Of a stretch of 64,000 nt of DNA, positions 8,823-57,187 are shown piece by piece. The position numbers and the translations under genes are program-made. The stretch is from Selaginella tamariscina (lineage: Eukaryota; Streptophyta; Lycopodiopsida; Selaginellales; Selaginellaceae). Positions within the stretch are counted from its first letter, which is position 1. Every line of letters starts with the position of its first letter. The notes beneath the pieces are model-generated. The model saw only the letters and a list, made by a program, of their open reading frames with translations, did no database searches and had not been told where the DNA came from. Location of the stretch: positions 186,001 to 250,000 of the forward strand of contig PUQB01000329.1 of NCBI GenBank assembly GCA_003024785.1, in the 5' to 3' direction.

Positions 8823-9235
8823 ATGGATAAAGGAGAAGGAGAAATGAGAGAGAGAGAGAAAGAAAGGCACAAGAGAGAGGAGAGAGAAATGAGAGAGAGA
8901 GAGAAAAAAAGGCACAAGAGAGAGGAAGGAGAAATGAGAGAGAGAGAGAGAAAGGCACAAGAGAGAGGAAAGAGAAATGAGAGAGAGAGAGAGAAAGGCA
9001 CAAGAGAGAGGAAGGAGATATGAGAGAGAGAGAGAGAGAAGGCACAAGAGAGAGGAAGGAGATATGAGAGAGAGAGAGAGAGAAAGGCACAAGAGAGAGG
9101 AAGGAGAAATGAGAGAGAGAGAGAGAAAGGCACAAGAGAGAGGAAGGAGAAATGAGAGAGAGAGAGAGAGAGGCACAAGAGAGAGGAAGGAGAAATGAGA
9201 GAGAGAGAGAGAAAGGCATAAGAGAGAAGAAAGAG
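8823..9235. repeat. GA-rich minisatellite, possibly coding
   Basis: About eight tandem units of 50-60 bp, each an (AG)n tract followed by a GGCACAAGAGAGAGGAAGG-type spacer. Plus-strand frames encode alternating Arg/Glu peptides (MREREKERHKREE); the complement encodes Leu/Ser repeats. It runs directly into the first recognisable part of deaminase-like copy 1, whose relatives also begin with a charged, repetitive N-terminal half. It may therefore be that protein's N-terminal region. As a plain minisatellite it would also give such frames, so coding status is uncertain. Confidence 0.7.
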
Positions 9236-9244
9236 ACCATGAGA

Positions 9245-10371
9245 ATTGCAAGAGGAAGGCTCAAGATCGACAATCTTGTGAACAACACGAAGAACAACAT
9301 ATACAAGTGAAAGATTTGGCGAATGATTTTATAGATTCAGCGCTATCGTTAGTTGTCTCAAGCATGCGCGACAGAGTGCCTTTCTGGCACAAAGGAGCGA
9401 GGAAACACCTTCGATGTTGAATGCTTACGATGGGTTATCGTCCATCTTACGTTCTCGTCCCCATGATGTGTATGCTGCCGTGGGATGGAACTCATCGGAC
9501 GGTGGTGGTGTTCTCAAATTTCTCTCCAATTCAGAATGGAGAACAACAGATTGCAAATATGTATATGATTTGCTCAAATTGGCGGGCTCTGGCGATGAAA
9601 GGTCTATCAGACAGATGGTAGTTACACGTTGCCGAAAGGAAATTATAAAAAAGACTTGGACGGCAACAGTTGAGGATCATTGACGTTTCAAGGGATAGCG
9701 TTCTATGTAAAGAACTCGTACGAATTGCAAATCAACATTGTTTATCCAAATGGGAAAGGAAGATCGCTGGTTTTGAATATGGAGTTCAAGCCATATCTAA
9801 AATCGCATGGTGGAAGGAGGCTACTGTGACTTTCCTTCCCAACGGTAATCCCTCCACTTTAAAAAGTACTAATTCTAGATATGGATGGGAAAGAAAGTTA
9901 AAAAAGTTAATGGGGGATTACAGACTTTATCAACTGGAAGTTGGACTCCGGGCATTAGAGACCACTGATTACAACCGAGTCCACCAGATGATAAAGAAGG
10001 CATTTCCACAGAGAAGAAGATAAGGAAAATGAAAAGATACGTAAACATTCAGAAATGTATATGGTGGAATGGTTGGTTGAAAGGGAATGGAAAGATGAGG
10101 TGCTTATGTCCAAACTTTGCTGCCATTTATGTTGACCGTTATAGAAGTTTTGAATAAGAAATACGGATTCAAGATAATGGTAAAAGGCACACATGGGAAG
10201 CACTATCACTTGTGGATGCTACCACATTTTCCGGAGCCGTATATGACATCGGTTTTAAGAGCTCTTGCTAATGATTTTGATGGCGTGATTGTTGAAGTGG
10301 TTAAAAACCAGTACATCTCCGTAGATGCGAGTCCGGACTCGATCGGAGCATCACCGATCCGCATGTAAATC
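9245..10371 (+). CDS. Deaminase-like family, copy 1 (frame-shifted)
   Basis: Three successive + strand frames (to 9683, 9670-10023, 10117-10368) align in order with copy 2 at 38.5-40.3 kb. Shared points are LLKLAGSGDE against LLGLAGSGNS, FEYGVQAIS against YERGVQTVA, VIEVLNKKYGFKI against VIRILNEHHGYNI, and a WxxP block followed by hydrophobic helix. The zinc-site signature of the deaminase fold is present. H-S-E is at 10046-10054 (KHSEMYMVEW) and C-C-H-L-C at about 10108-10122, followed by GTHGKHYHLW as in OTT_1508-type deaminases. Shifts occur near 9390, 9680, 10020 and 10125. All look like single-base indels in otherwise conserved text, so they may be consensus errors. A GA minisatellite precedes it. 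Substrate (RNA, DNA or nucleotide) cannot be told. Family assignment is mine, by motif only. Confidence 0.6.
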
Positions 10372-10487
10372 CTATTTACGATCTACTTGCCAAAAAAAAT
10401 GCACATAGATCTTTCTATACAGTAGTACTCTGTGCATTCTTACGTGTATCAGTGTATTAAACTCATTAAAATTAATAGATATCATGC

Positions 10488-25700: not shown

Positions 25701-25762
25701 ACCTCTTTGTTGGAGCCGTATCATCCTTCTTCTCTTCCCGTCGTGTTTCTTCTCCTCCCCCT

Positions 25763-25984: not shown

Positions 25985-25995
25985 GGAGGAGGTGC
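25985..25995 (+). other. Chromovirus polypurine tract
   Basis: GGAGGAGGTGC abuts the 3' LTR. It is the expected primer for plus-strand DNA. Confidence 0.8.
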
Positions 25996-28886: not shown

Positions 28887-29420
28887 CGTTAAACAGGAAA
28901 CTAGAAACCCCACCTTTTCCTGTTTAACTGGTTTTCTTTCCCCTAGCCTTTAAGGAAGGCTACACACTTTTTTCCTTCAATTCTCTACATAACATATATT
29001 AAAACTCCTTCTCTTAAAGCCACAATGACTGGTCTCCGAAGTCAAGGGCAAAGAATGGATTTTGGCTATTGCCTTATTAGATCCATTCATTGAGGTATAC
29101 ATTCATACACACAAGATCTTATAATATGCACCTTTCATTACTAACATGAATACAATAGACAAAGTGTAGAGAACCTATATCTCTTGCTGGAACTTCAAAT
29201 GGAGACCCTTCCTTTATTGCCCTAACTCCCCTTAACTATCCTTCCTCTCGCCACATCATCCTTTACCTTTCCTTTTCCTTTTCTTTTTTCTTTTTTCTTT
29301 TCCTCTCGGTAAGGATTTTCCTTCTTCATAGCCTTTCCTTCTATGCTTACTACAGACCTTCCTACCCTTATTCTCTCTACAGTAGGAATGTCCTATGCTC
29401 CTAATATTTTACCTTTAACA
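28887..29420 (-). repeat. B1 3' LTR
   Basis: 534 bp, matching 37355-37879. The + strand starts CGTTAAACAGG (first base changed from the TG of the partner) and ends CCTTTAACA. The following CTGCCTCCCTCATTC (complement GAATGAGGGAGGCAG) is the polypurine tract. Confidence 0.85.
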
Positions 29421-31720
29421 CTGCCTCCCTCATTCATTGTTGTGTCCTTACGGCAACACATCCTGCGCATCATCCTGATACTCCACCTCCTCCTGATCCG
29501 TTATACTTCTGAAACTTCGCCTTTTCCTTGTCAAGTTCCTGCTGCACCATTACTACCTGAAGGCGAAACGCCTGCGTCTCCTTCCTAAGCTGCTTGTTCT
29601 CTCCTGAAGACGCTGGAATTCGTCCACCACCACCAATAATATGGTAGCAGTCTGCTGGGTTTCATCTCGTGCTCGCACTAACCTCTAGAACAGTGTCATC
29701 GACTCCTGTGACGTCACCGTGGGCTTAAGCTCCACCACCAGGCTTGGAGTCCTCTGCTTAGCCGGTCGCTGAACGCCCTTACTCATCATCCCTTGAATGG
29801 CGGTCATCTTGGGTGCCATGACGCTCTCCACAGCCTGGACAATCAACCTCTGAATGTCTGCCCTATCCTTAACAGTGTATCCAGCGTTGACCAAATGATT
29901 GAATAGGCTTGCCGCCATCTGAGTTGCGTCCTGCGCCTCATTCCCTCCTCCAACAACCTGTTCTACCATCTCAGACTGAAGCTGCGCCAGAACCTGTGCA
30001 AACTGAATCTGCATGTCCGTAGTCTGCACCTCCTTCCGCGCAAATGCCTCCTGCGCTTGAAGGAGATATCCGCCTGCACATTACCCTCCTGCTGCTGTGT
30101 CATATCCTCCTCATCCAAGCGGAAATCAGGAACTGCCATGCCCTGTGATCCCCCACGATACACACCCCTGCCATACATACCTCCGTGTGACCTTGGTGAT
30201 GACTGGAACGGCAGTGGGTTGAATTGGTGTCTCGGAAACTTCATCCTCGCACCATCTCTTCCACTTCCTTTGCAATTTCCACTACCCCATCATCGGTTAT
30301 ATCCCCGTTGCCGGCGTAACCGTCGAAACTGGAGTATCAGCAGATGACTCGAACCCCTTCCGTTTCCCTTCTTGCTCATCCATCCGTTCATTCGTTGCTG
30401 CCTTATCCTTCTCGCATATCTTCGCTTCGAAGGATCCACCGTCTCTAATGGCACGATCATCATGCTGCTCCTCCTGTAACGACTTCAGGGTGACCTCCTG
30501 ATCTATTATCACCTGCTTCTGAGATTCCGACTTAATCTCCTGCCTCGCTTTCGTCCTCCGCTCCTTATCCACTTCATGCGACTCCTCTTCCTGCTGCTCC
30601 CAGGTTCTTCCTTTCTCCTTGCTCAAATAATTCTTCATCTTCCTGCATCATACCCCCTGACTGTTCATCCTCTTCTTCCTCCAAATCTACCACCAATCTC
30701 TGCTCCGGTCCTTCCTGTGCCCTCACCTTCTACTTTCCAGTCTTGCCTCCCGACCTTGTAGTCCTCTTCACCGGTGCCTGCTTCTCCACCTTAGGCTTCT
30801 TCTTCTTGTGCATCTTTTCTCCCTGTTTCTCTTCTTCCCCTTGCAGGTCCCTTCTAATTCCTTCCCTTTAGCTTCGATCCTTTCCGCTTCCCCTGCTTCT
30901 TCTGAAACAGCTCTGTCTCCTTCCTCACCTGTTTCATCCGAGCCACAATTTCCGGCCCTGCCGGCTCTCCATGCAGGCGCACATAATCTGCAATTACCTG
31001 TACCCACGTAAACGCCATCATTAATGAAGGCTCTCCTTTCTTCTCCAATTCCTGCATGGCGCATAGGTGCTCTCTCAACCTCTTCATCAAATACGAGCCA
31101 CTCCCACCGGCCTCTTTGCCTTCAATCCATCATATAAGGACATCACTGGGTTTGACGCCGTGATGTGTGATGTTCGGAACTCAAAAGCGTTGACAATGAA
31201 ATTCACTGCCAACTGCGTCTCCTCCACGAGATCGGAAAGCTTTAGACCTACCTTACTCACATACTGCTTCCCTTCTTTCAGAAAGTCTGTAAGGTGAGAT
31301 CTATCTGCCTTAACTTCTCCTCTGATCTCGGCAACAGGAAAACCTTTTTAAAGCTTCTCTGTAAAGAGGAGTTTCTCTCCTCGAATACGCTACAAATCCT
31401 ATCTCAGGCTTATCCACCTTTTCCATCAGCATAACCAGTGTGAAACACTGCTCATCATGAGGCTCTCCATCCTTCAAAATCTGCACATACTCCCACAATC
31501 CGAGCTCCCTCAACACCTTCTCCATCTTCCAAGGAGAAATCCCACTTTGTATGTACAGTTGTACCTGACCCAATCTCTCTCCATCGGAGGATTATCAACT
31601 CACGACAATTTTGAGTAGGCAAACATCCTTTCTTTGCCACATCTCTCTCTCGCTGCACACTCTGTAAAACCCTAGATCTACAGCCTCGTTTTGTGCACTG
31701 ACAGATAGAGAATATGCTCC
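29421..31720 (-). CDS. B1 third ORF region, unknown product (broken)
   Basis: After the pol stop (about 31721) a chain of minus-strand frames follows: 31573-31310, a continuing frame with VSKVGLKLSDLVEETQLAV, 31090-30854, 30638-30297, 30244-29963 and 30029-29685. Parts in order: a helical region (MEKVLRELGLWEYVQILKDG), a second helical region (MMKRLREHLCAMQELEKKG), a Lys/Arg tract (KKQGKRKGSKLKG), a highly charged coiled-coil-like stretch (30638-30330), a Gly/Arg patch, and a helix-rich end with GYTVKDRADIQRLIVQAVE. No signal peptide or transmembrane helix, so it does not look like an envelope protein. The C-terminal part is conserved in B2 and in the 19974-20336 fragment. Function unknown. 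Confidence 0.55.
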
Positions 31721-32810
31721 TCAAATCAATAAAAATAACATTTCTGCAACGTTCTCCTGCGATATATACTTCCTTACCTTATTAGCATTCACCATTCCCT
31801 CGATTTCCTCTCCTTCCAACGTTTCTAACTGCATCACTCCTTCTTCCTTTACAGACTTAACCCGAAAAGGGCCTATCCATTTTAAATCAAGCTTTTGACT
31901 CATTTCTCCACCTTACCTCTATACCACAGGACCAAGTCCCCTTCCTTTATCTCCTTTCCTCTTCTCTTCTATCCCCTTCTTCTCCTTTGGATAGCCTGTA
32001 TAGTCCATAAGGCTACCTCCTTAACTCATCCAACTTCTCCAATTCTATTAAACGAGTTGCCATAGAGTCCTTCTCTCCTATATTATATTGTACCGCTATC
32101 CGCAAGGATGGCACAATAAACTCCATTGGGGTTATGGCCTCTAAGCCATAAGCGAGCTTAAAAGGTGTCATACCAGTAGTCACTTTATAAGCTGTCCTAT
32201 AGGCCCAGAGAACTTCTGGTAACCTTTCATCCCAATCCTTTCGATTATCCTGAACTACCTTCCTTAACACGTTCTTAAGGACTTTATTTGTCGACTCAGC
32301 CTGCCCATTACCCTGTGGGTAATATGGTGTCGACTTCTTGTGTTTTATCACAAACTCCTTCATGAGCATTTCTATCGTTTCATTCACGAAATGCTTTCCT
32401 TATCACTCACAATTTCCTTAGGAATGCCATAACGTACTATTATAGTATTGTATATGACCTTTGCTGTATTATATGCATCGCCCTTCTCATAGGCTCTGCC
32501 TCTACCCATTTCATCATATAATCTGTTAAAACCAATATGTATTGATTCCTTTTTGAGCTCAGGATTAATTGGTCCTATAAAATCCATTCCCCATTTCTGG
32601 AAAGGTTCTAGTGGGAGAACTGGATTATAAGGTTGTATTTGTTTCTTTGGAGGCAATTGTGCACGTTGGCATTTATCACATGCCTTACAATAGCTACCTA
32701 CCTCCCTCCATAAAGTAGGCCACCATAATCCTGCCTGAAGGATTTTCCTTCCTGTTATTTCCTCTGCAAAATGGCCTCCTGCAAGGCCTGAATGAGCCTC
32801 TTTTAAAACC
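31721..32810 (-). CDS. pol: B1 integrase (frame-shifted)
   Basis: Zinc-binding part near 32790-32640 (TGRKILQAGLWWPTL, CKACDKCQRAQLPPKKQ). Core: EPFQKWGMDFIGPINP with the first catalytic Asp (about 32616-32570), a VSDK-type second Asp near 32395, and GNGQAESTNKVLKN with the catalytic Glu (about 32320-32280). The C-terminal domain has DLKWIGPFRVKSVKEEG (31893 on) and ends about 31721. One shift lies between the 32656-32384 and 32387-32013 frames. No chromodomain is seen after it. Confidence 0.8.
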
Positions 32811-33109
32811 TCCGGGACCTCTAAAGGGTCTACACATCTTGTAACACCCCATCGGACCCCAATTTGTACAACTGCCCTCCCACGAGAGAAAAGTGTCGTG
32901 TCCTCACGACAAACAACTTCCTTTCATCTGTTGTCCTATAAATAGGTGGTACTGTTCCAGTGGCTAGATACTATTTTATATGATCTAACCACCTTAATGG
33001 AACATCGACACGAAATAAATTCGCATCAGGAAAATCATCCATAGTACATAGGAACTTGCATGTTTTAATGCACTTAAATGGTCAGCCTGTTCATGCTGCC
33101 TTCCTGGTT

Positions 33110-34440
33110 TATGAATTATCTCAAAATTATATTCCTGCAGAAGTAAAAACCACTGGCTAACCTTCCTGTAAGTACAGGTTTATTAAGTAAATATAATAAA
33201 GCTTTATGATCGACAAAAATCTTCACTTTATTAGCCAAAAGATAGTGTCTAAATTTATGGATAGCATATACCATCCCCAAAGCTTCCTTTTCTGTAGTGG
33301 TGTAATTTACTTCCGCAGGTGTTAGCCTACGGCTAGCATAATAGATAGGACGATCCTTTCCATCCTCTTGCATCTGTGTAAGGATGGCTCCTATAGCCAT
33401 ATCAGAGGCATCCACTTGTACATGGAATTCTCGATCCCATTTAGGACTAACTAATATTGGTGCTTTAGTAAGAGCCTTCCGAAGTTGGTCAAAGGCCTCT
33501 TGACACTGTGATGTCCAATCATATGGTACATCTGCCTTTAGCAAATCTGTTAAAGGTTTTGCGATCTCAGCATAATGCTTTATAAACCGCCTATGGTAAC
33601 CTATTTTTCCTAAAAACCTACGTAACTCCTTTATATCTTGTGGTGGTTGTAAACTAAGGATAACCTTAACCTTATCCTGGTCCACCAATATACCTTCCTT
33701 ACAAACAACATGTCCTAAAAGGACTCCTGATTTAACAAAGAAGTTACATTTTTCAGGATTCAAAGCAACTAAATTTTGCCTACATTTCTGGAAACACTTT
33801 TCCAGACAATGCAAATGTTCTTCCTTTGAACTATAAACACTAAAATCGTCCATAAAGACTTTCATAAAGTCTAAAAGGTATTCCCGAAAGGTATCTGTTA
33901 TAATCCTTTGAAAGTAAAGGGTGCATTGCATAAGCAAAAGGCATAACTCTATAAGCATATGCACCCCACGGACTTATAAAAGCTGTTTTATGTTGATCTT
34001 CAGGAGCTACCATCACTTGGTTATACCCCGAAAAGCCATCCATGAAGGAATACATTTCGTGTCCGACATTATCCAGCATTTCCTCTGTAAAAGGTATCGG
34101 AAAGGTATCCTTAGCTGTAACATCATTTAACTTTTTATAGTTTACACATACTCTTAACTTTCCATTTTTCTTAGGAACAATTACAAGTGGTGATAACCAT
34201 TGTGCTCCTTGTATAGGATATATAAAACCAACCTGTAACAGCTTATCAATTTCCTCCTTAACTAACTTTGCATAATTAGGATTCATCCTATATGCATTTT
34301 GTTTAGCTGGTTGGCATCCCGGCAAAAGTTGAATAGTGTGCATACAGAGTTCTGGGGGTATTCCTTTTAGATCCTTATAGGACCATGCAAATACATCCTT
34401 GGCTAACAATGCCAATCCTTTATCCTTAAAATCAGGATCC
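33110..34440 (-). CDS. pol: B1 reverse transcriptase and RNase H
   Basis: Frames 34415-33840 and 33964-33116 overlap at one shift near 33950. RT motifs: VNYKKLNDVTAKDTFPIPF, SFMDGFSGYNQVMVAPEDQ and the catalytic VFMDDFSVYSS (about 33855-33823). Then comes the thumb GVLLGHVVCKEGI and RNase H with VDASDMAIGAILTQ (about 33425-33380) and TTEKEALGMVYAIHKFRHY. Apart from the shift near MPF, where FGLCNAPFTFQ-like text is lost, the domains are well kept. Confidence 0.85.
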
Positions 34441-34746
34441 AGTCTTGAGCTATAGTCAACATCTTAGGTTCCTTCTCTGTTCCTATGTTGACTTGCTCTA
34501 GAGGGTCATTAGTATATATGTATATAATCCGCAGGTTGTTCCTGTAAGTTCATTTCATAAGAAACAGACTTATAAAATTTTTCCTGCAACCCCAACTGAT
34601 CCTCTTCCTGTTCCTTTTGAGAGGCTTTCTTTTTCTCTTTCACGATTGCATATAAATCAATCTCTGCAAGGGCTTTTAGATCAGGGTATGTCTTCAAAAT
34701 TTCCTCTTCTCCTGATCATCCAAGCCCTGCATCCAATCATATCCTT

Positions 34747-35145
34747 CTAATGCAATGGTCTATCCCTTTTTGCTAAATATCTCTTAGCATGAGTATAGAT
34801 ATCCACCTTTATGTCACCTTGTCCTATTGTCATTTTTCCTGAGCCCCAATCTTGCACAACGTAAGCAATCTTAAGCCAAGGTCGGCCCAATAACATAGTA
34901 TAGGTTGCATCCTGTCCTTCCATTCGTAGGACTATTAAGGATATTTTAAATTTAAGTCCTTTAACAGATATAGTAACTGCTCTTACTATACCTAATGGCC
35001 TTACACTTCGTTGATCAGCCATTTTAAGGTTAAATGGAGCAGGCTGGATCGGTCCTAAACCCATCCTTTTACATTCACCTTCTTCAATAAAATTCACACC
35101 TGAACCTCCATCTATTAACACTCGTTTTAACTTATTTCTTCCCAC
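34747..35145 (-). CDS. pol: B1 aspartic protease
   Basis: The frame has RVLIDGGSGVNFIEEGECKR with the active site as D-G-G-S, where most retroelements have D-T/S-G-A. The second motif is ATYTMLLGRPWL. DGGS is a known variant in some plant gypsy elements. Both motifs are about 80 residues apart, as expected. Confidence 0.75.
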   Translation of the reverse strand: MGRNKLKRVLIDGGSGVNFIEEGECKRMGLGPIQPAPFNLKMADQRSVRPLGIVRAVTISVKGLKFKISLIVLRMEGQDATYTMLLGRPWLKIAYVVQDWGSGKMTIGQGDIKVDIYTHAKRYLAKRDRPLH

Positions 35146-35526
35146 ATATTATTGTGCAAGGAACTTGTCCATCATAATCACCTTCATACAGTACTTCCTT
35201 ATCCATTTTACAGACTGTATATCCTTCACTCGAAGGTGGTGTTTCTGAACTAAGCTTAATGCATTTAATATTTGGTTTCTTATATAAGGAGCTACCTTTA
35301 TCAACTGTCCAAGCGTAACTTTTACCTCCTGATTTATAGCTTGGTGATACATGGAGTCCATTGTTTATCATGTAATGGTAATAATGAAAAACTTTGTTCA
35401 CCTTTATCTATATCACCTTTGTCTATACCTTCTGATTTGTTATCAGTCTGACCTTTCTGGTCAGGATCCTGCTCCTGCTCGTTTACCTTTCCTGTAACAA
35501 GCTCTCCTTCTTGTTAGGAATAATAA

Positions 35527-37149
35527 CTACCTCTCCTTCTCCATCATAACAGGATTCCTTCTTCTTTCTTGAAGAGCTATAACTGCCCTTGCAACGGGTG
35601 GATACTCATCCTTTTCCTCCTCTATTTGAATAAGCCGTGTTGTAGGCTGTACATTAGTCATTCTGGTGGAAGTAGGAGGTTGTACATTCCGCCTAGGACA
35701 TTCCCTAGAGATATGTCCTGTTTCACCACATGTATAACAAACCTGGGAAGGAAAATTCCTACCCTGTGGTCCTTGTCTATCATTGACCTGATTATATTGC
35801 TCATTTTGCCTCTTTGACCTTGATAAGGTCTTGCTTCTCCTTATATTGTTTATCATTTCTTTCTGTATAGGTCTATCCTTCTGTCGTCCATGTATGGACC
35901 ATTTTTTTCTCCATAATACCTATCCTCTCTATTTTCGTAAGGAACATCATTCCTCTCTCATAATATCCATTATTCCTATTCTGATAAGGAACTTCATTCC
36001 TTCTCTATATATATTGTTCTGTTCTCATAAGGAATAGCATTATCATTTCTATCATTCCCACGATTCCTATTAGGTGGAACCTTCTAGGAGGTGGACATTC
36101 ATCCATTCTTCTTTCTCTCTCTATACCAGCCACATTCTGGTTCAAGAAATGTCTGCAGTTCCGGGCTACATGTCCTTCCTTTCAGATTTGGCATGTAGGC
36201 AGTTGTAGCCTACATTCCTCCACTGTATAGCCAGGATTGTTACATTTAGTGCACCATACCTTTGCCTTTATCTCTTCCTTAACTGTTATTCCCTTTAAGG
36301 TTTTCATCATTTGAGCTAATGCTTTGTCATTTATTGGATAATTACGAACCTTTACTACATCAGCTTCCTCTTCTTCTTCATCAAAGATATTTTTAATTGA
36401 TTAATGAGATTCTCTCTATCCTTTTCATTGATAGTGAGTGCTAGATCTCTATATAGTTTTAGCAACCCTTGCTTATACCATTGCAATAAGGCATCATCTT
36501 TATATATGCCTTACACTTTTTTTATGTTTCTTAAAACGGTGTGTATATTCATCTATTTTTTTGTTTTGCCTTGAAGGATAGTCCTTAACTTCTTTAAATG
36601 TTCCTCTAACAATTCCTCCTTTATGAAATATTCCTTAAAAGCATCAGTAACCTTCTGATAATCCTCTCTGACTTCCTTTTATAAATCATAATACCAGTCA
36701 AAGGCATTTCCTTTCAATGTATGTGGAAATATAAGCAGCCTTTCTGCATCCGTCACCTTATACAGTTTTACTACCTCTTCAAACTATTATAAGTGCCTTT
36801 TCGGATTTTCTTTCTTTCCTGCAGAGAATGTGGGATACATCACCGTACCCCCAAACATTCCCAAAAAAAGTGCCATATTTGTAATAATCCTTTGCTCTAT
36901 TGTATTTCCTCTTACACCTTCCTCCCTTCCTCTTCGGAAGTTCTCAGGAGATCCTTCTCCTTGCAATCTCGGTCTATGAACTCCTTCCGTTCCTCTCACG
37001 GTCTCCTCTAAACCAGCTATTTGATACTGCCTCCAATTCTCTGGATTAGCCTTAGATTTCTGTATTGTTTCTACAATATCCTCTACTATCTTCCCAATGA
37101 TATTTTGACGTCTATTTTCGTTAGTTTCATGTTGCTGTTGGGCAGCCAC
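35527..37149 (-). CDS. gag: B1 Gag (frame-shifted) with zinc knuckles
   Basis: Start ATG at 37149 (MAAQQQHETNENRRQN). Around 36790-36560 the frames give LLIFPHTLKGNAFDWYYDL then REDYQKVTDAFKEYF, the retrotransposon Gag domain. Two knuckle-like segments lie near 36255-36155 (CTKCNNPGYTVEEC; CQI-stop-KEGHVARNC, where a Cys codon became a stop). A perfect CCHC, CYTCGETGHISREC, is at about 35742-35697. Multiple shifts and stops. Confidence 0.75.
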
Positions 37150-37334
37150 TTTATTGGCCTGCCTTTGGTTCCTTTAATCAGCTAAGGCTGGATCAGGACG
37201 ATGGTTCCTCCAAGGTTCCATTCATTCCTTCTCCTTTACACATCCGGCTTTACACCTTCTGAGCCTTTTTTTCAGAATGAAAATTCTGTCTTTTAGCCTC
37301 TTTTCTCAATGAATGCTAACACTGCAATGGCAAA

Positions 37335-37354
37335 ATCCCTCCATGGTCGCCAAA
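37335..37354 (-). other. B1 primer-binding site
   Basis: In minus sense TGGCGACCATGGAGGGAT begins two bases after the 5' LTR. The TGG start fits pairing with a tRNA CCA end. I cannot name the tRNA from memory. Confidence 0.6.
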
Positions 37355-37879
37355 TGTTAAACAAGAAAAACGGAAACCCCACCTTATCCTGTTTAACCGG
37401 TTTCCTTTCCCCTAGCCTTTAAGGAAGGCTACACACTTTCTTTCCTTCAATTCTCCACATATACATATATTAAAACTCCTTCTTTCAAAGCCACAATGAC
37501 TGGTCTCCGAAGTCAAGGGCAAGAACGGATTTTGGCTATTGCCTTGTTAGATCCATTCATTGAGAGTATACATTCATACACACAAGATCTTATAACATAC
37601 ACCTTTCATTACTAACATGAATACAAGAGACAAAGTGTAAAGAACCTCTATCTCTTACTGGAACTTCAAATGGAGACCCTTCCTCTATTGCCCTAACTCC
37701 CCTTAACTCCCCTTCCTCTCGCCACATCATCCTTTACCTTTTCCTTTTTCTTTTCCTTTTCCTCTCGGTAAGGATTTTCCTTCTTCACAGCCTTTGCTTC
37801 CATACTTATTACAAAACCTTCCTACTCTTATTCTCTTTACAGTAAGATGTCCTATGCTCATAATATTTTACCTTTAACA
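37355..37879 (-). repeat. B1 5' LTR
   Basis: 525 bp, TGTTAAACAAG to CCTTTAACA on the + strand, with the inverted ends TGTTAAA/TTTAACA. Pairs with 28887-29420. Confidence 0.85.
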
Positions 37880-38400
37880 ACATCTATAAATAAGAGAAGG
37901 GTTCTAAACGATAAGTGTCATCTTCATCTAAAGTCTGTTTTTTAGTATATTTAGCGATAATCAATTGAACCAATCCCTAAAGACCTAAGTGTATTAAGCA
38001 ACGTCCATGCCCAGCCAAAAGTAAAAAATAAAGTCATAAAGTCAAAATTATAACAATTGTCTTAAACTCACCGTCTAATGATTGATATTCAATAGTTATC
38101 TTAAGGATAACAAGTTAAAATTAGTAATAAACTCATCAAGTTAAGGATAATAATTATATAGATCATTAAATAATTAAAAGATAAATTCATATGGTTAAGA
38201 ATAAGAATTGGGTTAAGATAATAATTAAATAACAATTAGGTTAATGGTAATTGATTAACTCACCTGGTTAAATATAACAACTAAGTCAATTATTCATTAA
38301 TTAATAAGTCCGTTCGGTCGGCATGTGTATTAGTACACGTTTTTATTATAGTACGCAATAAAAAAGTTTAAATTTAAATAAATTTAATTACTTATTTACT
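37880..38400 (+). other. Unit 1 DNA right of the nest: family A-like tail and AT-rich spacer
   Basis: 37880-38050 matches the end of family A copy 3 (ATTTATAAATAA, AACGATAAGT and AACCAAT blocks near 43440-43560). 38100-38400 matches 43600-43760 (CATTAATTAATAA, ACGCAATAAA blocks). No coding signal. It leads into the promoter region of deaminase-like copy 2. Confidence 0.55.
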
Positions 38401-38403
38401 TAT

Positions 38404-38506
38404 ACGGAATAAAACCTTTTTACCACTAAAGGATATATAGGGAGGCCACATAATTAATAAAACCTTTTTACCACTAAAGGATATATAGGGAGGCCACATA
38501 AATTAG
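38404..38506 (+). repeat. 51-bp tandem duplication upstream of copy 2
   Basis: AATAAAACCTTTTTACCACT through AGGGAGGCCACATAA occurs twice in a row, ending 15 bases before the ATG. Copy 3 has the unit only once and altered. It may change promoter or leader length. Confidence 0.85.
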
Positions 38507-38511
38507 GGTTT
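38502..38511 (+). promoter_or_regulatory. Telo-box-like sequence before copy 2
   Basis: ATTAGGGTTT lies 11 bases before the ATG at 38522. Copy 3 has ATTAGGGTTAGGG in the same place (43851-43863). Such motifs are common near plant transcription starts. Confidence 0.5.
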
Positions 38512-38521
38512 GGATACGAGA

Positions 38522-40255
38522 ATGAAGCGGCAGAGAGCGCATGACCCTAACGAGGAATACGGAGCGTGTAGGAGGCAAAGGATGGATGAGAATCGAGAAA
38601 ACAGGTAATATCGAGGAAATTTTGGCAATTGAGAAAGAAGACATCCCTAATTGGGAAGCGAGGATGCAAATGGGAGATGAGTACAGAGAAAGTTCCCAGG
38701 AAATTGTGGCAAAGGGAAATCCTGATAAAGAAGACATCCTTAACTCTAAAGGAGAAGACATTGAGTGTGATTACAATAATTTAAGTGAAGACAGCAGCCA
38801 CAGAGAAACGTATGCAAAGGATGGATGAGAAGGGTGATGAGAAGGGTTATGAAACAGGTGAGTACGATAATTTAAGTTTAAGTGTTTAAGTGAAGACAGC
38901 GACAAAGAACGTATGCAAAGGATGGATGAGAAGGGTGAGTACGATAATTTAAGTGAATACAGCGATAGAGAATGTATGCAAAGCATGTATGAGAAGGGTC
39001 ATGAAACAGGTGAGACAGAAGGAGAGCAGGAAATGGCAGATTTGGATGATAATTTAAGTGAAGACAGCGACAGAGATCGTAAGCAAAGGATGGATGAGAA
39101 TGGTGATGAAACAGGTGAGACAGAAAGAGAGCAGGAAATGGCAGATGAAGACGATGAGGACGATAATTGTAATTACTTTCGGCCCAAGTTTAAAAGCAAG
39201 GCAGAGGAGGAGAGATTTAGGAGAGCTATGTGTGATGTTCAGGAGGAGACCTATAGGATTGAGGAGGTAGAGCAGGACAAAATCCTTGAGAGGAGGTTCT
39301 ACAACAGGAGCTCTGTATGTGGTATTCTGGAGAATTTTGGAGAGGACATTTTAAAGCCTTTCAAAGAGGGTAAGAACCGAGTGGTGATTGAGGAGGTACC
39401 TTCTGCCCTGGACACTTGCACTGGCTTAGCTCGCATAGCGTCAACCTACCAGTACGAGCAGATAGCAGTGAACTGGAGTGAGTCTAGTCGGACACTCACC
39501 ATTGGGCCGATAGCTGACACGGAGCATATGGAGTACGTCAAGGAGCTGCTGGGTCTTGCCGGGAGCGGTAATTCCGATCTCATCCGGAAGAAGATGATCA
39601 AGTATTGCCTCAGGATCTTGCAGAACCTGACCTGGCCCGATGGCATGCCCTTGTTAAATGAGGCCCAACTAAGAGCACCTTGCTAGAGGTGGCTGCCAGA
39701 GGCAACCTGCGCAAGGGTAGTAGGGAGAGCAAGGTTGCTAGTTACGAGCGGGGTGTGCAGACGGTGGCAGCTTGGAACCTGGGAGATGTAAATGTGAGTT
39801 TCATAGATGACTGCCACTGCCATGGCAACGAAGAGCTTCTCAAAGATATTACAGCGTGGTCCATCCAGGTTCTTACAGCGTTCGATCCACCATTATGTTA
39901 TGAGCTGAACAAGCTGGACTTTGACACTGAAGATCTGTATATGGATTCCGTGCCTATGGCTTTTCTCCATGTGGAGATGGCAGTTGTGGAAGGCATAGTT
40001 CGCCGTGGGGTGGACAAGTCGCTGCAATGCCTGGGGACGGCACGACCGTGCTGTTATCAGTGCTACCAGGTCATCCGCATCCTCAACGAGCATCACGGGT
40101 ATAACATCCGAATCAAAGACTGTGGCATGGAGTTGAGGGGGTTCTGGAAGATACCGGACCTGCCTCCGGATATCAAGACGGATGTCCTGCATCGACTCAA
40201 CCATGCACTTTCCCGAGCCGTTTCCGACGCCTTGCAAATGCACCAATGTGTTTGA
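38522..40255 (+). CDS. Deaminase-like family, copy 2 (best preserved)
   Basis: ATG at 38522 (MKRQRAHDPNEEYGACRRQR), shared with copy 3. The N-terminal half (to about 39170) is acidic and repetitive, with three to four units of about 28 residues built on DNLSEDSDRERMQRMDE and ETGETEGEQEMAD. Then comes a conserved middle (FRPKFKSKAEEERFRRA, VKELLGLAGSGNSD). The C-terminal frame 39680-40255 holds AFLHVEMAVVEG (H-x-E, codons at 39968-39976) and ARPCCYQCYQVIRIL (Cys cluster 40049-40063), then GFWKIPDLPP. This is the zinc site of the cytidine-deaminase fold: His and two Cys bind zinc, Glu shuttles protons. Shifts at about 38595, 38830-38900 and 39655 (an extra A against copy 3) break the frame; each is one or two bases. 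No intron needed, no signal peptide. Substrate unknown. Confidence 0.7.
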
Positions 40256-40710
40256 TATCAAAATATTATAATATGATGTTGTAATTTTATTATATATTAT
40301 TTTAACAATAATTTTATTGATAAATTGTAATACGATATGTTAGATAAATTTTTAAGTTTATTATAGTTTATTTTATTTTAATTATTAATTTCTAAAATTT
40401 TATTATCTTTATTCATATACGGTACATTTTTAAAATATTACAAGTATATACTGTATCTTCATTATTTCCGATTTAAGACAAAATAATGACCTTTAAGAAT
40501 ATCTGGTGTATGTGAGAGAGTGAGGTTTATATATATATATAATATAATATATATATATTTTAAGTGTACAGTTAATGTCTTTACATATGTAAAATATATG
40601 TAAGACCTGTGTGTGTAGACTTAAACAAAACACACACACACACACTAGATCTATATACAACAGAATGTAGAGGTACCTAGTCTACATTATTGCTTTATAT
40701 TTCACTCATA

Positions 40711-40748
<38 letters not shown>

Positions 40749-41110
40749 ATGCCTATTGTTATATCATGTGTGTGCACGTGTGGCAAATAGGATACTTTAA
40801 ACTATTTGCTTGAGTTTTAAAATACATACATACACTTAAAAAAAAAATGTAGTATATTTTAATTAATTTATAAGTTTTTATAATTATTTTTTTATAAAGT
40901 CAATTTAATAAAACATAAAAAGTAAAGTTTTGTTAAAGTTTTGTTAAAGTTATAATTAAATCGAAGAATGTAACCAACTCCTTTCAACATTCTCGGTGTG
41001 TGTAAGAGAGAGAAAAGATTTCATATGTTTGTTACTTTATATCGTATGTCTTATATATAAGTACATACATCCATACGTATTATTGAACTTTTAACACAGC
41101 CTCGAATACG
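40256..41110. other. AT-rich end of tandem unit 1
   Basis: Contains (TA)n near 40525 and 40715 and (CA)n near 40632. It matches 45600-46570 in unit 2. No gene seen. Confidence 0.5.
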
Positions 41111-42221
41111 ATTCGATCGAAAACTCTCATATTATAAACAACATTATAAATTTTAAATTTAAAGAGTAGTAATCAAATGTACAACTATGTACCAAAGGCC
41201 TTCACTATGTAAGTTCTCTTATATTTAATAAATAAAAAGACTTTCATTTATGATAAATGACATTGAAATACTTTCATTTATGATATATCTACCCTAAAAT
41301 TACACCTGATAGAATGCAATATTAAATCCATGTATTACCATATGCTATCATCCCATTTCCTCGTATTCCCTTATGAGATAACTCTATAATAGAGTTAATT
41401 GAGTTAATTAACTTGAACAAAGAATGCATATTTTATAATTAAGATTTTATGTTATATGATTTAAATCAAGTGACTTGAATTAATAAATTGTTCTACCTAA
41501 TGTTACTTGTAACTAGCGTTATCAAATTATCGTGAACATCAAATAGTATTTAGATTACATTATCAATTTGAATAATCTAATTAATATATTGTTATATATT
41601 AATACCCAACTTTTTATTATAATAAAGTGTAACACCATAGCTTATTTCTTAAGTCTTAATAATGCACTTTAAATTAGAATATAATATTCATTCTTATGTT
41701 TAAATATGTCTCTTTTTTCAAAGTCTCTTCATTAAACATGGTTATTGAAATTGCTATTGAATCTTGACATAAGTCAAAATATTACCATGTTTCTAAATTA
41801 TGTGTTATTATAATTTCATACACCTAAAAAAAAGAATTTTTTTTTTTTAATGTGTAGACTTAAAATATCACATGTTCCATATCATAAAATTTAATTTATA
41901 AGCCAGAACAAACTAACTTACTATGTCTTATAGAAATATATGGTGACATGGGCAAACATAAGGTAAAGTAACATGGACAAATGTAAAATAAAGTAGCATG
42001 ATATATATACAAAAGTTGCTTTATGAGTGCTACTTTTAACATTAAAATTCATAACCCACACCCAGTGTTTTTTAAAGAATTATAGATTTCATGACTAACT
42101 CTCCTTACAAAATTTAAATGTATTAGTCAAAATTATATAATACTTTAAGAATTTAAAACTAGTTAAACACTAAACACATTACAACTTTAGGCAATCCTAT
42201 TGCAATGAATAATATGTGATA

Positions 42222-43570
42222 CTATTGTCAGAATTTTAATCCAAAGGGCCAACTTGTGACAATACATGGCTGTCAAGTGGTTATTGCCATCAACACCCTA
42301 TGTGAACAACTTTTAGTCTTCTAAAACAATTTTGAGAGTTTAATTCAAATGCCCAAATAGGTATAAGACTTATAATCTTATTTTAAATCCCTTAAAATAA
42401 CTATTCCTTGAACCTTAAAAGATAACACATATAAACTTTTAGATTCTGTTTTAAGAGACCTAGACAGGCTCATGCCCAAACCCCACCAAAAAGACGTGTC
42501 TCACACATATTCCCATAACAAAGCTAAGGCATTGTCATTACTTATTGAAGAATCATCCTCATTCAGGAGTACAACCCCTTTAAGGCGACAAAAAGTATTT
42601 TATGACAAGTCATATCCTAACCTAGGGTTAGTACTTAGTGAGGACATGAGTGTTTTACTAAGCAAACTCCATAAGGCTAGATTTAAACACATGACCACGT
42701 GAGTGCCTCATGAAAGGACTTATGTAATGAGCTTAAGTTGCTCAACTCTTGAACATGTTCATACACCCACCAAGAAAACACCCCTAACTAAGTGTAGCAC
42801 ATTTAGTTACAAGAGCTAACCTTCTTTATACAGATGTTCAAGGCTTAACACTTTAATATGAGCACAAACACGCTTACTTGCTAGAGTATCCAACCTCTCA
42901 GCATCAAACCCGTGACACAATTCCTAAGGTTGTGCCCTAGGATTATATAACTTAGTACTACATGTTTATGTGACTCTTTCTCAAGACATAGGCTATCTTG
43001 TCATAACCGTTTATATTCAAAAACTACATCTAGTGTTACGAATGTGACTCGTAAATACCAACATTAAAACCTCTCTTTGTGAACCTTCAAGAACATAATA
43101 AAAAGAATTTGTCAACCAAGATACCATTCATAATTGAACAATAACATAATGGTGCTCTTAATTTGATGTGGAAGAGGAAGTTGGAAATAAGCCTTAACCT
43201 TTAATTATTATAATGTGTACTTCAATAGGACTTCTCATGTGTGGATTCATCAATAACAAAGGTAGCCTATCAATTGGAAGTTAGGGTCACAAAATATGAT
43301 TATGCCTTAATGACATAAACTAAACCTTACACCAATAAAAGACAATAACTCTCTTTACATACACCCTATCCTATATTCCTAGTGTTAATAAGGTTTAATA
43401 ACTTAATTTAACTTAACTCTAAACCCAACCCCATAATTACATTTATAAATAATAAAAGGAGGATTTTGAACGATAAGTTTAATTTTCACTTAGAGTTTAT
43501 TTTTGATATATTTAATGACAATTGATTAAACCAATTCGTAAAGACTTAAGTTTATTAAGTAGGGCTGTTT
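42222..43570 (+). repeat. Dispersed repeat family A, copy 3
   Basis: Starts TGTCAGAATTTTAATCC. It tracks copies 1 and 2 throughout but is markedly AT-richer, with many sites where C or G in the others is T or A here (for example CCTAAACCATG in copy 2 against a T/A-rich or deleted counterpart). No coding. Confidence 0.7.
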
Positions 43571-43870
43571 TTATTTCATTACATCGATTCCCCGTGGGTA
43601 AGAAAATAAGGTTAAGAGTAATTAGGTTAACAAAATAACTTAAAAATAAATTTACCAGGTTAAGTATAATAACTAGTCATTAATTAATAAATTTAAAATT
43701 AGCCTGTTATATAGTTTTTATTATTTTACGCAATAAAGGAATTTAAATTTAAATAAATTTAATTACTTATTTATTTATAACGATCGGAATAAAACCTTTT
43801 TAACTCTTAAACACCGCTAAAGAAAAACCTTCAGATCGGGAGGCACATAAATTAGGGTTAGGGTACGAGA

Positions 43871-45530
43871 ATGAAGCGGCAGAGAGCGTATGTCCCTGAC
43901 GAGGAACACGGAGCGTGTAGGAGGCAAAGGATGGATGAGAATCGAGAAAAGACAGGTAATATTGAGGAAATTTTGGCAATTGAGAAAGAAGACATCCCTA
44001 ATTGGGAGAGAGGATGCAAATGGGAGATGAGTACGACAATTTTAGTGCCGATGAATTATCAGAGAAAGTTCCCAGGAAATTGTGGCAAAGGGAGACATCC
44101 GTAACACTAAAGGAGAACAGAAAGAAACATTGAGAAAGAAGACATCCGTAACTCTAAAGGAGAACAGAAAGAAGACGTTGAGCGGATTACGATAATTTAA
44201 GTGAAGACAGCGATAGAGAACGTATGCAAAGGATGGATGAGAAGGGTCATGAAACAGATGAGTACAATAATTTAAGTGAAGACAGCGACAGAAACGTATG
44301 CAAATGGATGAGAATGGTGATGAAACAGGTGAGACAGAAGGAGAGACAGAAGGAGAGCAGGAAATGGCAGATGAGGACGATAATTTAAGTGAAGACAGTG
44401 AAGAGAATGTAAGCAAAGGATGGATGAGAATGGTGATGAAACAGGTGAGACAGAAGGAGAACAGGAAATGGCAGATGAAGACGATGAGGATGATTTGTAA
44501 TTACTTTCGGCCCAAGTTTAAAAGCAAGGCAGAGGAGAGAGATTTAGGAGAGCTATGTGTGATGTTCGGGAGGAACCTATGGGACCGAGGAGGTAGAGCA
44601 GGAAAAAATCCTTGAGAGGAGGTTCTACAATAGGAGCTCTGTATGTGGTGTTCTGGAGGACTTTGGAGAGGACATTTTAAAGCTTTCAAAGAGGGCAAGA
44701 ACCGTGTGGTGATTGAGGAGGTACTTCTGCCCTGGACACTTGCACTGGCTTAGCTCGCATAGCGCCAACCTACAGGTACGAGCAGATTGCGGTGAACTGG
44801 AGTGAGGTCAGTCGGACACTTACCATTGGGCCGATAGCTGACACAGAGCATATGGACGTTAAGGAGCTGCTGCTTCCGGGAGCGGTAATTTCGGATCTCA
44901 TCCGGAAGAAGATGATCAAGTATTGCCTCAGGATCTTGCAGAACCTGACCTGGCCCATGGCATGCCCTTGTTAATGAGGCCCAACTGGAGTGCACCTTGC
45001 TAGAGGTGGCTGCCAGGCAACCTGCGCAAGGGTAGTAGGAGAGCAAGGTTGCTAGTTACGAGCGGGTGTGCAGACGGTGGCAGCTTGAGCCTGGGAGATG
45101 TAAATGTGAGTTTCATAGATGACTGCCACTGCCATGGCAACGAAGAGCTTCTCAAAGATTTTAGAGCGTGGTCCATCCAGGTTCTTACAGCGTTCGATCC
45201 ACCATTATGTTATGAGCTGAACAAGCTGGACTTTGACACTGAAGACTGTAATGGATTCCGTGCTATGGCTTATCTCCATGTGAGATGGCAGTTGTGGAAG
45301 GCATAGTTCGCCGTGGGGACAAGTCGCTGCAATGCCTGGGGACGTCACAACCGTGCTGTTATCAGTGCTACCAGGTCATCCGCATCCTCAACGAGCATCA
45401 CGGGTATAACACCGAATTAAAGACTGTGGCATGGAGTTGAAATGGGTTCTGGAAGATACCGGACCTGCCCGGATATCAACGGATGTCCTGCATCGACTCC
45501 ACCATGCACTTTCCCGAGCCGTTTCCGACG
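43871..45530 (+). pseudogene. Deaminase-like family, copy 3 (broken)
   Basis: Start at 43871 matches copy 2 and stays open to about 44104 (TGNIEEILAIEKEDIPNWE). It is about 90% or more identical to copy 2 at the DNA level by eye, but has more than a dozen small deletions. At the key motif, CATGTGGAGATGG of copy 2 is CATGTGAGATGG here (about 45280), so the H-x-E frame is lost. The Cys cluster text survives (CGTGCTGTTATCAGTGC, 45352-45368). Around 44970-45000 copy 3 keeps the frame (NEAQLECTLLEVAAR) that copy 2 loses, so the two copies correct each other. Decay or consensus error cannot be separated here. Confidence 0.7.
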
Positions 45531-46569
45531 CCTTGCAAATCTCTACTGCTTAGATAGTGTGCTACTGCAAATTCAAATGTTATAAAGTAATGTTATCTAC
45601 GCACCAATGTTTGATATCAAATATTAAATTGAATAATATGATGTTATAATTTTATTATATATTATTTTAAACAATAATTTTATTAATGAATTATAATATA
45701 CACACACGCGCGCACAATCTGATTTATATGTTAGATAAATTTTAAATTTATTATAGTTATTTTTATTTTATTAATTTCTAAAATTTTATTATCTTTATTC
45801 ATAATATATTAACTCAGTAAGTTTTTAAAATATTACAAGGGCATATACTGTATCTTGCTAGATCATTAGACATAAATAGTGACCCTTCAGAATATAACCA
45901 ACAGGTTTATAGATATATTTATAGGTTACAGTTAATGTCTTTACATATGTAAAATATGTAAGCCTGTGTATGTAGACTTAAATAAAACATACACACAGAT
46001 AATACAGCAGAATGTAGAGGTTATATTTCACTCATAATATAGAATTATAATGTAATATATATATATAAGTTTAAATTTCATGCCTATTGTTATATCGTGT
46101 GTACACGTGCGGCAAATAGGATATGTAAACTTATATTTGCTTGAGCTTTAAGTACATATATACATACAATTTAAAAATAAAATGTAGTATATTTAATTAA
46201 TTTATAAGTTTTCATAATTATGTTTTTTATAAAGTTAATTTAATAAAACATAAGAAGTAACGTTTCATTAAAGTTAAATTTAAAATAAAGTAGTTTATAT
46301 TTTAATTAAATTTTAATAAATTAAAATTTACGAGTGAAAAAAAGAAATTAGTTACTCGGAAGATCATTAGAGCAGGAAATAATGACCTTTTTAACTACGT
46401 TTAATCCTCAAGCCTTGTTTTTGAATACACAATCCAAGAATCTAACCAACTCCTTTCAACATTCTCCAGTGTGTGGTGTGTAGAGAGAGAAAATGTTTAT
46501 TGTACATCTTATATAGATACATGCATCCATACTATTATTGAAACACAGGCTGGAATATGATTTATAAAC

Positions 46570-52010: not shown

Positions 52011-53801
52011 TTTAATATTAATTAATTAATTTAAGTTTAGAATATTTATTTTAGAATTATAATTAACTTGAAGGTTATTGATATTTTACACGTTATTTTA
52101 ATATGTATACAGCACAAAAAGTGATTTACATATTATATTGTATATATGTGAGAGCTCGGATGTAATAAAAATTTCTAGATTAGAATAGTAGATGATTAAA
52201 AAGAATCACAAAGACGATGATCTCTTTTAATTTATTATGTTTATAGTTCTTCCTTTGTTTGAATTGTTTTTAAAACTCAACCACCTACTGAATACACGTT
52301 TCATGTTTCAACAAGACTATTCATATATAAATTTATCATTTCCCTACCATTGTTGAAGGTCTCAAGACCTCATATATAAACAAATGTACAGAAGCAACCC
52401 AATAATATGCAAATCGTTTGTTTAAAACAATATTAGATTCACCCATTACATCAAGCAAGCACTAATGCTCCCCTCTCTCTCATATACACAATCAAATGTT
52501 GTGTGTGTGTGTATAGAAAAGCATATACAAAGTAAGTTATTATATATATGTGTGTGTGTGTGTGTGATCTATAATATATTTTATGTATATATGTGTGTGT
52601 ATATATCCTACATTATAAATCATTAAACTTATAAAATTAATTCGTATGTTTTAATTTATATATTAGAAAGAAGACCATTTAAATTGTATCATTTAAACTA
52701 AATTATTTCATTTTAATCTGGCATTTATATCCAGCTAAACTATGGAATGAAAAATATAAAATATGTCAATGTGATTTGTTTTGTTTTTAATAATTTAGCT
52801 TTTTATCGTTCTGGCTTCATGCTTGAATATGCCATAAATCCTGGAATGTTTTCATATGTATATTTATATTTTGAAATTTATTTAAAATATATAATTGTTT
52901 TTGTAGGGAAAGTGGATTATATTCCATTCTAAGCACACAAATTAGCATTCAAGAATATACTAATGTTTTAGTTAATAAAAAAATATACATTAATAATTCA
53001 TATAAATAAACTAATTAAGAAATTAAACTAAATAGTTATGTTATATGTAAGTCTCATCTCTCTTAGAATTTAATATTAATAGCCATTTGAAGGCTTTGCA
53101 TCCCAATAAATTCATTGGCCTTGTTAAATGTTTTTATAATAATAAAAATATATTAATCTTTGCATACAGATCCAACAAAAACATATACAAATGTCATGTT
53201 TGTACATACAATATACACGTATAAATGGTGTCTATCTGATTTTCATATATAAAAAGATAAAGCTATAAAAACACGAAGGTAAATATATATAATTCATTTG
53301 TTAAAATATTTGAAGAACATTATTAGAATCTGTCTCTTGCAAGAAATTTATAAATTTTCTAAATATAGTTTTTAACATATTCAATATATAAAATAATGTT
53401 AAAATATTAATGAACTATTAAACTATATCAAATTTCATATATATACATGTACGGTGTATGGTTTATACATACTCAATCATGCGTCGTCAAAGCCCTCTCT
53501 CACGTAGTAGGATGGATATGTGTACCGATGATCAGATTTCGTTAAAAAAAAGTCACAGGAATACACGTGTGTGAGACAGTGTAAATTAAATTTTAAATGA
53601 AAATTTGACGTGTGCATACGTTTTAACTAGAATCTCATGTAACGCCACACACACACGTGTACATACAGGCATGACTCCGTTCACTAATTTGAATCTTCTT
53701 TAAACTAGTTTATTATGAAACTTCTTATTGTATGTGGCTCCATTAGATTTATTTTATTTTAAATTTTGATATAAGCTGAAAAATATAAATAGTTAAATTA
53801 A

Positions 53802-55387: not shown

Positions 55388-56520
55388 TAAAAGAGAAATG
55401 ACATAAGATAAAAGAAAGAAGATCGATAAGCTTATAAAGAGCATGAAGAATAACACATACAAGTAAAAGATTTGAGAAATAATTTTTATAAATTCAACAC
55501 TATCATTAATTGGTTTAAACATGTACAACACAGTGCCTTTTTAACATAAAGAAATGAGGAGACACCTCCGATGCTGAATGTTTATGATAGGTTATCGTCT
55601 GTCTTATGTTCGCATTCGCATGATGTGTATGTTACCATGGAATGAAACTCATCCGAAGGTATTCTTAAATTTCTCTTCAATTTTAAGTGGAAAACAACAA
55701 ATTGCAAGTACATATACGATTTGTTCAAATTCGTGGGTTTGAACAACGGAAGGTCTATACACAAATGGTAGTTACACACTGTCAAGAGGAAATTATGAAA
55801 AGATTTAAACGGGGGATGGTCAAGGGTCATTGACGTTTTAAGGAACAACGTTCTGTACAAATAACTTATATAAGTCGCAAATTAACATTTTGTATCCAAA
55901 CGAAAGAGAAAGATCGCTAGTTTTAAATGTGGAGTTCAAGCTGTATTAAAAATCACATGGTAAAGGGAGGTTACAATGACTTTCCTTCTCAACGGTAATC
56001 TCATCATTTTAAAAAGTACGAATTCTAGATATGAATAGAAAAAAACAGTGAAAAAGTTAATGAAGAATCGCAAACTTTATTAATTGAAAAATTGAATTTC
56101 AAACATTAAAAATCACCGATTACAATTGAGTTCACTATATAATAAAGAAGGCATTCCGTAAGGAAGAAAATAAAGAAAATTGAAAAGATACGGAAACATT
56201 TAGAAATGTATACAATAGAATGGTTAATTAAAAAGGAATGTAAAGATTAAATATTCATGGGAGTGTCCAAACTTTACTACCATTTATGTTGAATTATTAT
56301 AAAAGTTCTCAATAAGAAATACGACTTCAAGATAATGGTAAAAGGCACACATGGGAAGCACTATCACTTGTAAAGGTTACCGCATGTTCTAGAGTTGTAT
56401 ATAACATCTATTTTAAGAGCTCTTGCAAATGATTTAAATAACGCGATTGTTGAAATGGTTAAAAAATAATACATCTTCGTAAATGCGAGTTCCAACTCAA
56501 TTTAAATCCTATTTATATAT
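55388..56520 (+). pseudogene. Deaminase-like family, copy 4 (decayed)
   Basis: Aligns base for base with 9240-10380 (for example CCGATGCTGAATGTTTATGATAGGTT against the copy 1 text at 9409, and AAAGGCACACATGGGAAGCACTA at 56340). The frame has many stops. Differences are largely C to T and G to A: GCGCTATCG of copy 1 is ACACTATCA here, and the codons of C-C-H-L-C now read Y-Y-H-L-C (about 56275). The H-x-E triplet survives as H-L-E (56198-56206). Unlike the other copies, the damage here is by base substitution, so this is a true pseudogene. Confidence 0.8.
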
Positions 56521-57187
56521 TAATAATGATTTACTTGCAAAAAAACACATGTAAATCTCTTTCTATATAGTAGTACTTTGTGCATTCTTATGCATATCAA
56601 TGTATTAATTCCTTTAAAAATTAATAAAGAGATGAGACTTATATATAACATAAATAATTTAGTTTAATTATGTATTAACTATTTTATTAATTATATAAAT
56701 TATTGATGTCATATATTCTTTTTTAACTAAAGTGTATACTTATATACTATTAACTAAAACATGGAATGTGTATAGCTATTTTCATATGTATATCTATATT
56801 TTTGAAATTTATTTAAAATATGTAGTTGTTTTTGTAGGGAAAGTGGATTATATGTCCATTCTAAACACAGTAGGATCCGGCAAATTTAGCATTCAAGAAT
56901 ATAAAGCATGAATGCTAAATTATTAAAAATAAAATAAATCACATTGACATATTTTATATTTTTCATTCCATAGTTTAGCTAGATATACCAGACTAAAATG
57001 AAATAATTTAGTTTAAATGATACAAAATGGTCTCTCTTTCAAATATAAAATTAGAAAACTTAATTTTATAAGTTTAATGATTTATAATGTAGGAATATAT
57101 ATGCACACATATACATATACATAGATATACTATAGATACCCACACACACACACACACATATATATAACTTACTTTGTATATATGCTT

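Follow-up and report, generated by a model that had tools for sequence, protein, structure and literature searches.

Positions 38522-40255 of the window, that is, of the whole stretch of 64,000 nucleotides of Selaginella tamariscina DNA analysed here (bases 186001-250000 of the 281,223-base contig C648), raise two questions: do they and their paralogues encode a deaminase, and if so, is any copy still a working gene?

Layout of the four copies in the window

The sequence-only reading of this DNA had described a four-copy gene family. Four copies are present and all lie on the + strand, but none is a single open frame as assembled, because frame breaks are found in every one of them (Table 1). 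Copy 2 in particular, given as 38522 to 40255, is read in several pieces rather than as one open frame, and the deaminase piece is 39662-40255. The N-terminal open frame of copy 2 is 271 residues long from stop to stop and the C-terminal frame is 197 residues long; in the 191-residue version of the latter, begun at 39680, the PF14441 domain occupies residues 96-160. The deaminase domain lies C-terminally, past the 271-residue frame, which is a statement of order only as the two frames are separate in the assembly. The domain of OTT_1508-like deaminases (PF14441) usually sits toward the C-terminal end of a larger protein. The acidic repeats proposed for the N-terminal half of copy 2 are real, with a 105-bp unit in 1.9 codon-phased copies and with 31 Asp and Glu against 9 Lys and Arg in 80 residues. 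When the N-terminal frame was scanned (38913-39683) no Pfam family was found at E values up to 1. One might explain the mid-gene break in copy 2 by a spliced intron, but this is unlikely because the paralogue L015 reads open across that point. A perfect 48-bp tandem duplication (38408-38501) immediately precedes the copy 2 start codon.

The Arg/Glu repeats described for the N-terminal half of copy 1 did not hold up. Their source is the 43-bp array that precedes the gene, and this array has 3-4 stops in each + frame. A similar array is found at the paralogue L013, and translation of the arrays into protein is not supported for either locus. Copy 3 is 91.9% identical to copy 2 over ungapped columns, and one piece of it scored 26.0 bits against PF14441, just under the curated Pfam cut-off of 27 bits. 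Copy 4 has 11 stop codons in the 287 codons aligned with copy 1 and has lost the first Cys of C-x-x-C, and it is clearly a plain pseudogene.

Table 1. Coordinates of the copies and their parts, numbered from the first base of the window
Feature	Position	Strand	Remarks
GA-rich 43-bp tandem array	8835..9244	.	5' of copy 1; stops in all three + frames
Copy 1	9263..10477	+	Extent is that of the match to copy 4; at least four frame pieces
Copy 1, deaminase piece	10016..10132	+	PF14441 profile 2-35, 18.1 bits, below cut-off alone
Copy 1, deaminase piece	10135..10365	+	PF14441 profile 44-64, 15.5 bits, below cut-off alone
Copy 2, duplicated stretch	37880..41113	+	Piecewise match to 43439-46562; 3' flank 74% identical
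Copy 2, whole	38522..40255	+	Starts at the ATG shared with paralogue L015 and ends at the stop past the deaminase domain; frame broken several times
Copy 2, N-terminal open frame	38871..39686	+	Acidic repeats and middle region with LAGSG
Copy 2, acidic tandem repeat	38943..39146	+	35-codon unit
Copy 2, C-terminal open frame	39662..40255	+	Carries the deaminase domain
Copy 2, PF14441 match	39965..40159	+	Profile 1-64 of 64, 29.5 bits, E 7.1e-07
Copy 2, H-x-E (HVE)	39968..39976	+	Predicted zinc ligand and catalytic Glu; role from family knowledge
Copy 2, C-x-x-C (CYQC)	40052..40063	+	Predicted zinc ligands; role from family knowledge
Copy 3	43849..45541	+	Tandem duplicate of copy 2; many one-base gaps; frame break inside H-x-E
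Copy 4	55419..56626	+	Decayed relative of copy 1 (76%)

A Ty3-type retroelement is present at 20334-26646, with direct terminal repeats that are 97.9% identical and with matches to gag, protease, reverse transcriptase, and integrase in several frames. Another retroelement lies on the minus strand (28888-37879); the direct repeats at its ends are 90.3% identical and matches to reverse transcriptase and RNase H lie at 33116-34415. AT-rich repeats of 0.3-1.6 kb, both direct and inverted, form an unclassified nest around copy 4 (52000-63400). A plant tRNA-Met primer site was not found for the window retroelements, the 64-kb window gave neither a tRNA nor an Rfam match, and 10 further window frames outside the genes and transposons had no Pfam match above a cut-off.

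Membership in the OTT_1508-like deaminase family

Copies 1 and 2 are only 29% identical over 328 aligned codons, and their likeness is nevertheless far above chance. The Smith-Waterman score was 202 and shuffled sequences (n=200) reached at most 65; the N half alone scored 108 against 48 in shuffles and the C half alone 109 against 58. Identity by codon position over the same 328 codons was 0.41/0.56/0.30, which is the pattern of constrained coding sequence. The motifs noted earlier, LAGSG, HVEM/HSEM, PCCYQC/LCCHLC, VI-x-x-LN, and W-x-x-P, do occur in the same order in copies 2 and 1. The order of H-x-E and C-x-x-C was also as claimed, but the first Cys comes 28 residues after the His in copy 2 and 25 after it in copy 1, slightly more than the 20-25 that had been given.

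The proposal that these are OTT_1508-type deaminases was borne out by the Pfam profile. Copy 2 (29.5 bits) and the read-through protein of copy 1 (31.3 bits) both exceed the cut-off, and so do single frames of L009 (42.6 bits), L010 (38.3), L014 (31.2), L017 (28.4), L018 (28.2), and L015 (28.1), while L016 alone scored 26.5 bits, just under it. Both H-x-E-M and C-x-x-C are legible in 12 of the 15 loci described below, the exceptions being copy 3, where a break falls within H-x-E, copy 4, where the Cys is lost, and L019, where H-x-E is absent. Could this nevertheless be a zinc-binding domain that merely resembles PF14441? The scores are modest (28-43 bits), and a single-sequence structure model of the deaminase had a mean pLDDT of 35.8 and gave no usable fold. 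Against this, several diverged subfamilies pass the curated cut-off independently and the two zinc motifs are kept together in most loci. We therefore regard a non-deaminase as very improbable, and membership in the OTT_1508-like deaminase family is well supported by profile and motifs.

Other searches did not add relatives. In Pfam scans copy 1 (E up to 10) and copy 2 (E up to 1) matched PF14441 only, and not the DYW profile (PF14432). There was no match in an NCBIfam scan and no relative among PDB sequences. The copy 1 and 2 alignment gave 52 pattern matches in prokaryote contigs (one genome for each of 84,980 species) and 47 in viral contigs, and no relative was found among either at the sensitivity of the scan. 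In a collection of 5.8 billion proteins, joined copy 2 had 5022 candidates, none at E 1e-3, the copy 1 and 2 alignment had 7995, none at E 1, and the copy 1 core had 6, none at E 10; these negatives say little since the search requires shared five-residue words and the collection is perhaps poor in plant proteins.

The family in the whole assembly

The assembly that was searched has 300,702,823 bases in 1391 contigs. PF14441 had at least 13 matches in it, all above the cut-off in that search and distributed over seven contigs. Four of the 13 have stops within the match; of the nine that are free of stops, four match almost the full length of the model and five are partial. Together with copies 1 and 4 the genome matches make up 15 loci, which were sorted into subfamilies by tblastn and by eye. 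Subfamily A consists of copies 2 and 3, L010, L011, and L015; B of copies 1 and 4 and L013; C of L012 and L014; D of L017 and L018; E of L016; and F of L009. L019 is doubtful and stands outside A-F. Subfamilies C and D and L019 had no tblastn match to copy 1 or 2 and are tied to them by PF14441 only, while a profile made from the C-terminal parts of copies 1 and 2 finds E (E value 1.6e-06) and F (E value 5.8e-24). A profile built on the middle region of A and B had no match in any other subfamily. Six of the 15 loci are on contig C648, on one strand, spread over about 145 kb. PF14441 was absent from all 14 members of a control set, which is a weak control because DYW is likewise absent there, seemingly for want of a land plant in the set.

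The two loci of subfamily C are about 150 kb apart on contig C481 and have Copia-type gag/pol frames beside them on the opposite strand, as seen from Pfam matches at L012 and a weak gag match at L014. Matching pieces with 91-94% identity extend over 957 to 8378 of L012, and this deaminase gene may have been copied along with a Copia-type element or by segmental duplication. An in-frame TAG after VEFVD is common to L012 (4102-4119) and L014 (3856-3873). The simpler reading is that it is an inherited lesion; TAG is also the stop that fungal OLD reportedly recodes. The subfamily D loci are inverted copies about 32 kb apart on contig C1137. Where one of them reads through, the other is broken, and vice versa, a pattern suggestive of errors in the assembly or of very recent decay.

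Broken or working genes

These interruptions raise the question whether a formerly active deaminase survives only as pseudogenes that multiplied through tandem duplication and together with DNA rich in transposons. The breaks in all four window copies, the stops in copy 4 and in some of the genome matches, and the state of subfamily C, where L012 and L014 each have further stops besides the common TAG and show no constraint as a pair, all speak for it. On the other hand, dN/dS is clearly below 1 in most pairs (Table 2), and purifying selection is thus seen in most paralogue comparisons. Moreover, no stop by substitution is present in the aligned codons of copy 2-copy 3, copy 2-L010, copy 2-L015, copy 1-L013, or L017-L018. 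Earlier dN/dS values from protein-aligned pieces (0.18-0.86, and one of 2.36 on 9 changes) were superseded since out-of-frame stretches inflate them.

Table 2. dN/dS of paralogue pairs from nucleotide alignments (p values are uncorrected and the pairs are not independent)
Pair	dN/dS	p	Stop codons
Copy 2-L010	0.41	1.3e-5	0
Copy 2-L015	0.41	0.02	0
Copy 2-copy 3	0.36	0.007	0
Copy 2-L011	0.62	0.02	2
Copy 1-L013	0.29	7.6e-5	0
Copy 1-copy 4	0.49	8.2e-5	11
L010-L011	0.42	0.0002	2
L010-L015	0.49	0.0009	0
L017-L018	0.26	0.04	0
L014-L012	0.78 (not different from 1)	0.41	2

The breaks that were checked are also private to single copies, because L015 is open across the mid-gene break of copy 2 and L013 is open across the break between CHLC and VIEV in copy 1; L015 and L013 have frame breaks of their own. 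Some breaks may be assembly errors. The main piece of the L017-L018 match (6.2 kb) has 54 gap openings and 53 mismatches, to which simple repeats contribute, whereas L012 and L014 differ by 27 gap openings and 388 mismatches, and such an excess of gaps in the former pair hints that errors of the assembly were left uncorrected. A family made up of pseudogenes is a somewhat unlikely explanation, and copies 2 and 3 cannot be called pseudogenes with confidence. No intact member was found among the window copies, which are damaged as assembled; working members may be elsewhere, may be masked by assembly errors, or may be absent.

Constraint is not uniform along subfamily A. Between copy 2 and L010 dN/dS was 0.66 in the deaminase part and 0.21 in the middle part, and between copy 2 and L011 it was 0.99 and 0.34, respectively. 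In the deaminase part there were 7 nonsynonymous changes and no synonymous change between copy 2 and L015, and 9 and 1 between copies 2 and 3. This weaker constraint could be due to relaxed or diversifying selection or to gene conversion. For copies 2 and 3 gene conversion is favoured, because only 2 of 179 third codon positions differ within the deaminase part while the 3' flanks are 74% identical.

Decay of copy 4 and the host

Changes of C to T from copy 1 to copy 4 were found at 37 of 64 CHG sites, 33 of 87 CG sites, and 110 of 333 CHH sites. The excess in CHG is significant against CHH (p 0.0003) and against CG (p 0.02), and it points to plant-type DNA methylation. Fungal RIP targets CpA. 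As the cause of this decay it was rejected, since CpA is the least affected dinucleotide (51 of 162).

The same figures bear on the suspicion that the genes come from fungal DNA that contaminates the assembly or was inserted very recently, which arises because the family has been described mainly from fungi (PMC12754623, PMC13327615). The CHG bias and the spared CpA argue against it, as do the scatter of PF14441 matches over several contigs and contig C671, which carries, among the matches listed, one PF14441 match and two DYW matches. DYW had at least 150 scored matches in the same assembly (282 candidates), and these together with the CHG-biased decay support a plant host. Such a contamination or insertion is extremely improbable.

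Another possibility is an active enzyme that deaminates DNA or changes C to U, for example a mutator of transposons or viruses, instead of an A-to-I RNA editor. It would fit with copies that stand among retroelements and with the heavy C-to-T and G-to-A change in copy 4, and one type of zinc site serves both cytidine and adenosine deaminases. However, the peak of C-to-T change in CHG is what cytosine methylation predicts, and those relatives for which an activity has been reported are editors of mRNA adenosine (PMC12754623). We consider such an enzyme quite unlikely.

Proposed function

Based on these findings we propose that the loci very probably form a land-plant branch of the OTT_1508-like deaminases that has expanded in its lineage, is presumably RNA-directed, and is related to the fungal OLD editors. 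Copy 2 and its paralogues would encode three regions, a charged one at the N-terminus, a conserved one in the middle, and a zinc deaminase domain at the C-terminus. In the predicted mechanism, H-x-E and C-x-x-C would hold one zinc, activate water, and deaminate a base, and the remaining regions would select the RNA or a partner. Catalysis by those members whose motifs are intact is likely, given the family to which they are assigned. By homology to fungal OLD the likeliest substrate would be adenosine in RNA. We put RNA as the substrate at roughly even chances by this analogy, and A-to-I rather than C-to-U editing is a tentative suggestion on the same ground. A role against viruses or transposons is doubtful, and the most specific version of the proposal, a nuclear A-to-I mRNA editing family of spikemosses that is related to OLD and changes fast through conflict with viruses or transposons, is distinctly improbable.

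A multi-copy branch in land plants that has kept its active-site motifs and seems to be under purifying selection would extend the range known for the family, and the loci would be a concrete list of genes for probing A-to-I mRNA editing in plants. If that most specific version is true, it would mean a kind of mRNA editing that is not known in plants, besides C-to-U editing in organelles, and an OLD-type editor beyond fungi; the genes may be a lead to an enzyme for RNA editing or defence of which plants have so far provided no description.

Comparison with known deaminases

A search of the open-access literature found no report of the OTT_1508-like family in plants, the papers found being by title on fungi, on Leishmania, and commentary on RNA editing. 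The closest comparison is with fungal OLD proteins, which carry the PF14441 domain and reportedly recode UAG as UIG in zao transcripts upon virus infection (PMC12754623). Sites edited by fungal OLD are reported to lie in hairpin loops with U at -1. The loci described here resemble them in the family of the deaminase domain, in the H-x-E...C-x-x-C centre, and in the presence of several copies per genome; they differ in being from a plant and known from genes alone, the comparison being with the published description of the fungal proteins. A zao-like zinc-finger partner was not found in 10 selected frames of the loci, which covered about 4 kb of flank without intron-aware gene finding; these frames gave a sub-threshold B-box at L009 and a Myb/SANT-like match at L011.

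The founding members of PF14441 are bacterial OTT_1508-type deaminases. A bacterial-toxin origin of such deaminases is cited in PMC13327615. Another non-fungal eukaryote shares the family name, namely, Leishmania mexicana, whose LmxM.32.1760 is listed as an OTT_1508-like deaminase in PMC12315365, and here the comparison is by annotation only. The DYW deaminase of plant PPR editing factors is likewise a zinc deaminase and is encoded in this same genome, but it constitutes a separate Pfam family. The deaminase family itself is known, and these plant copies would be further members of it.
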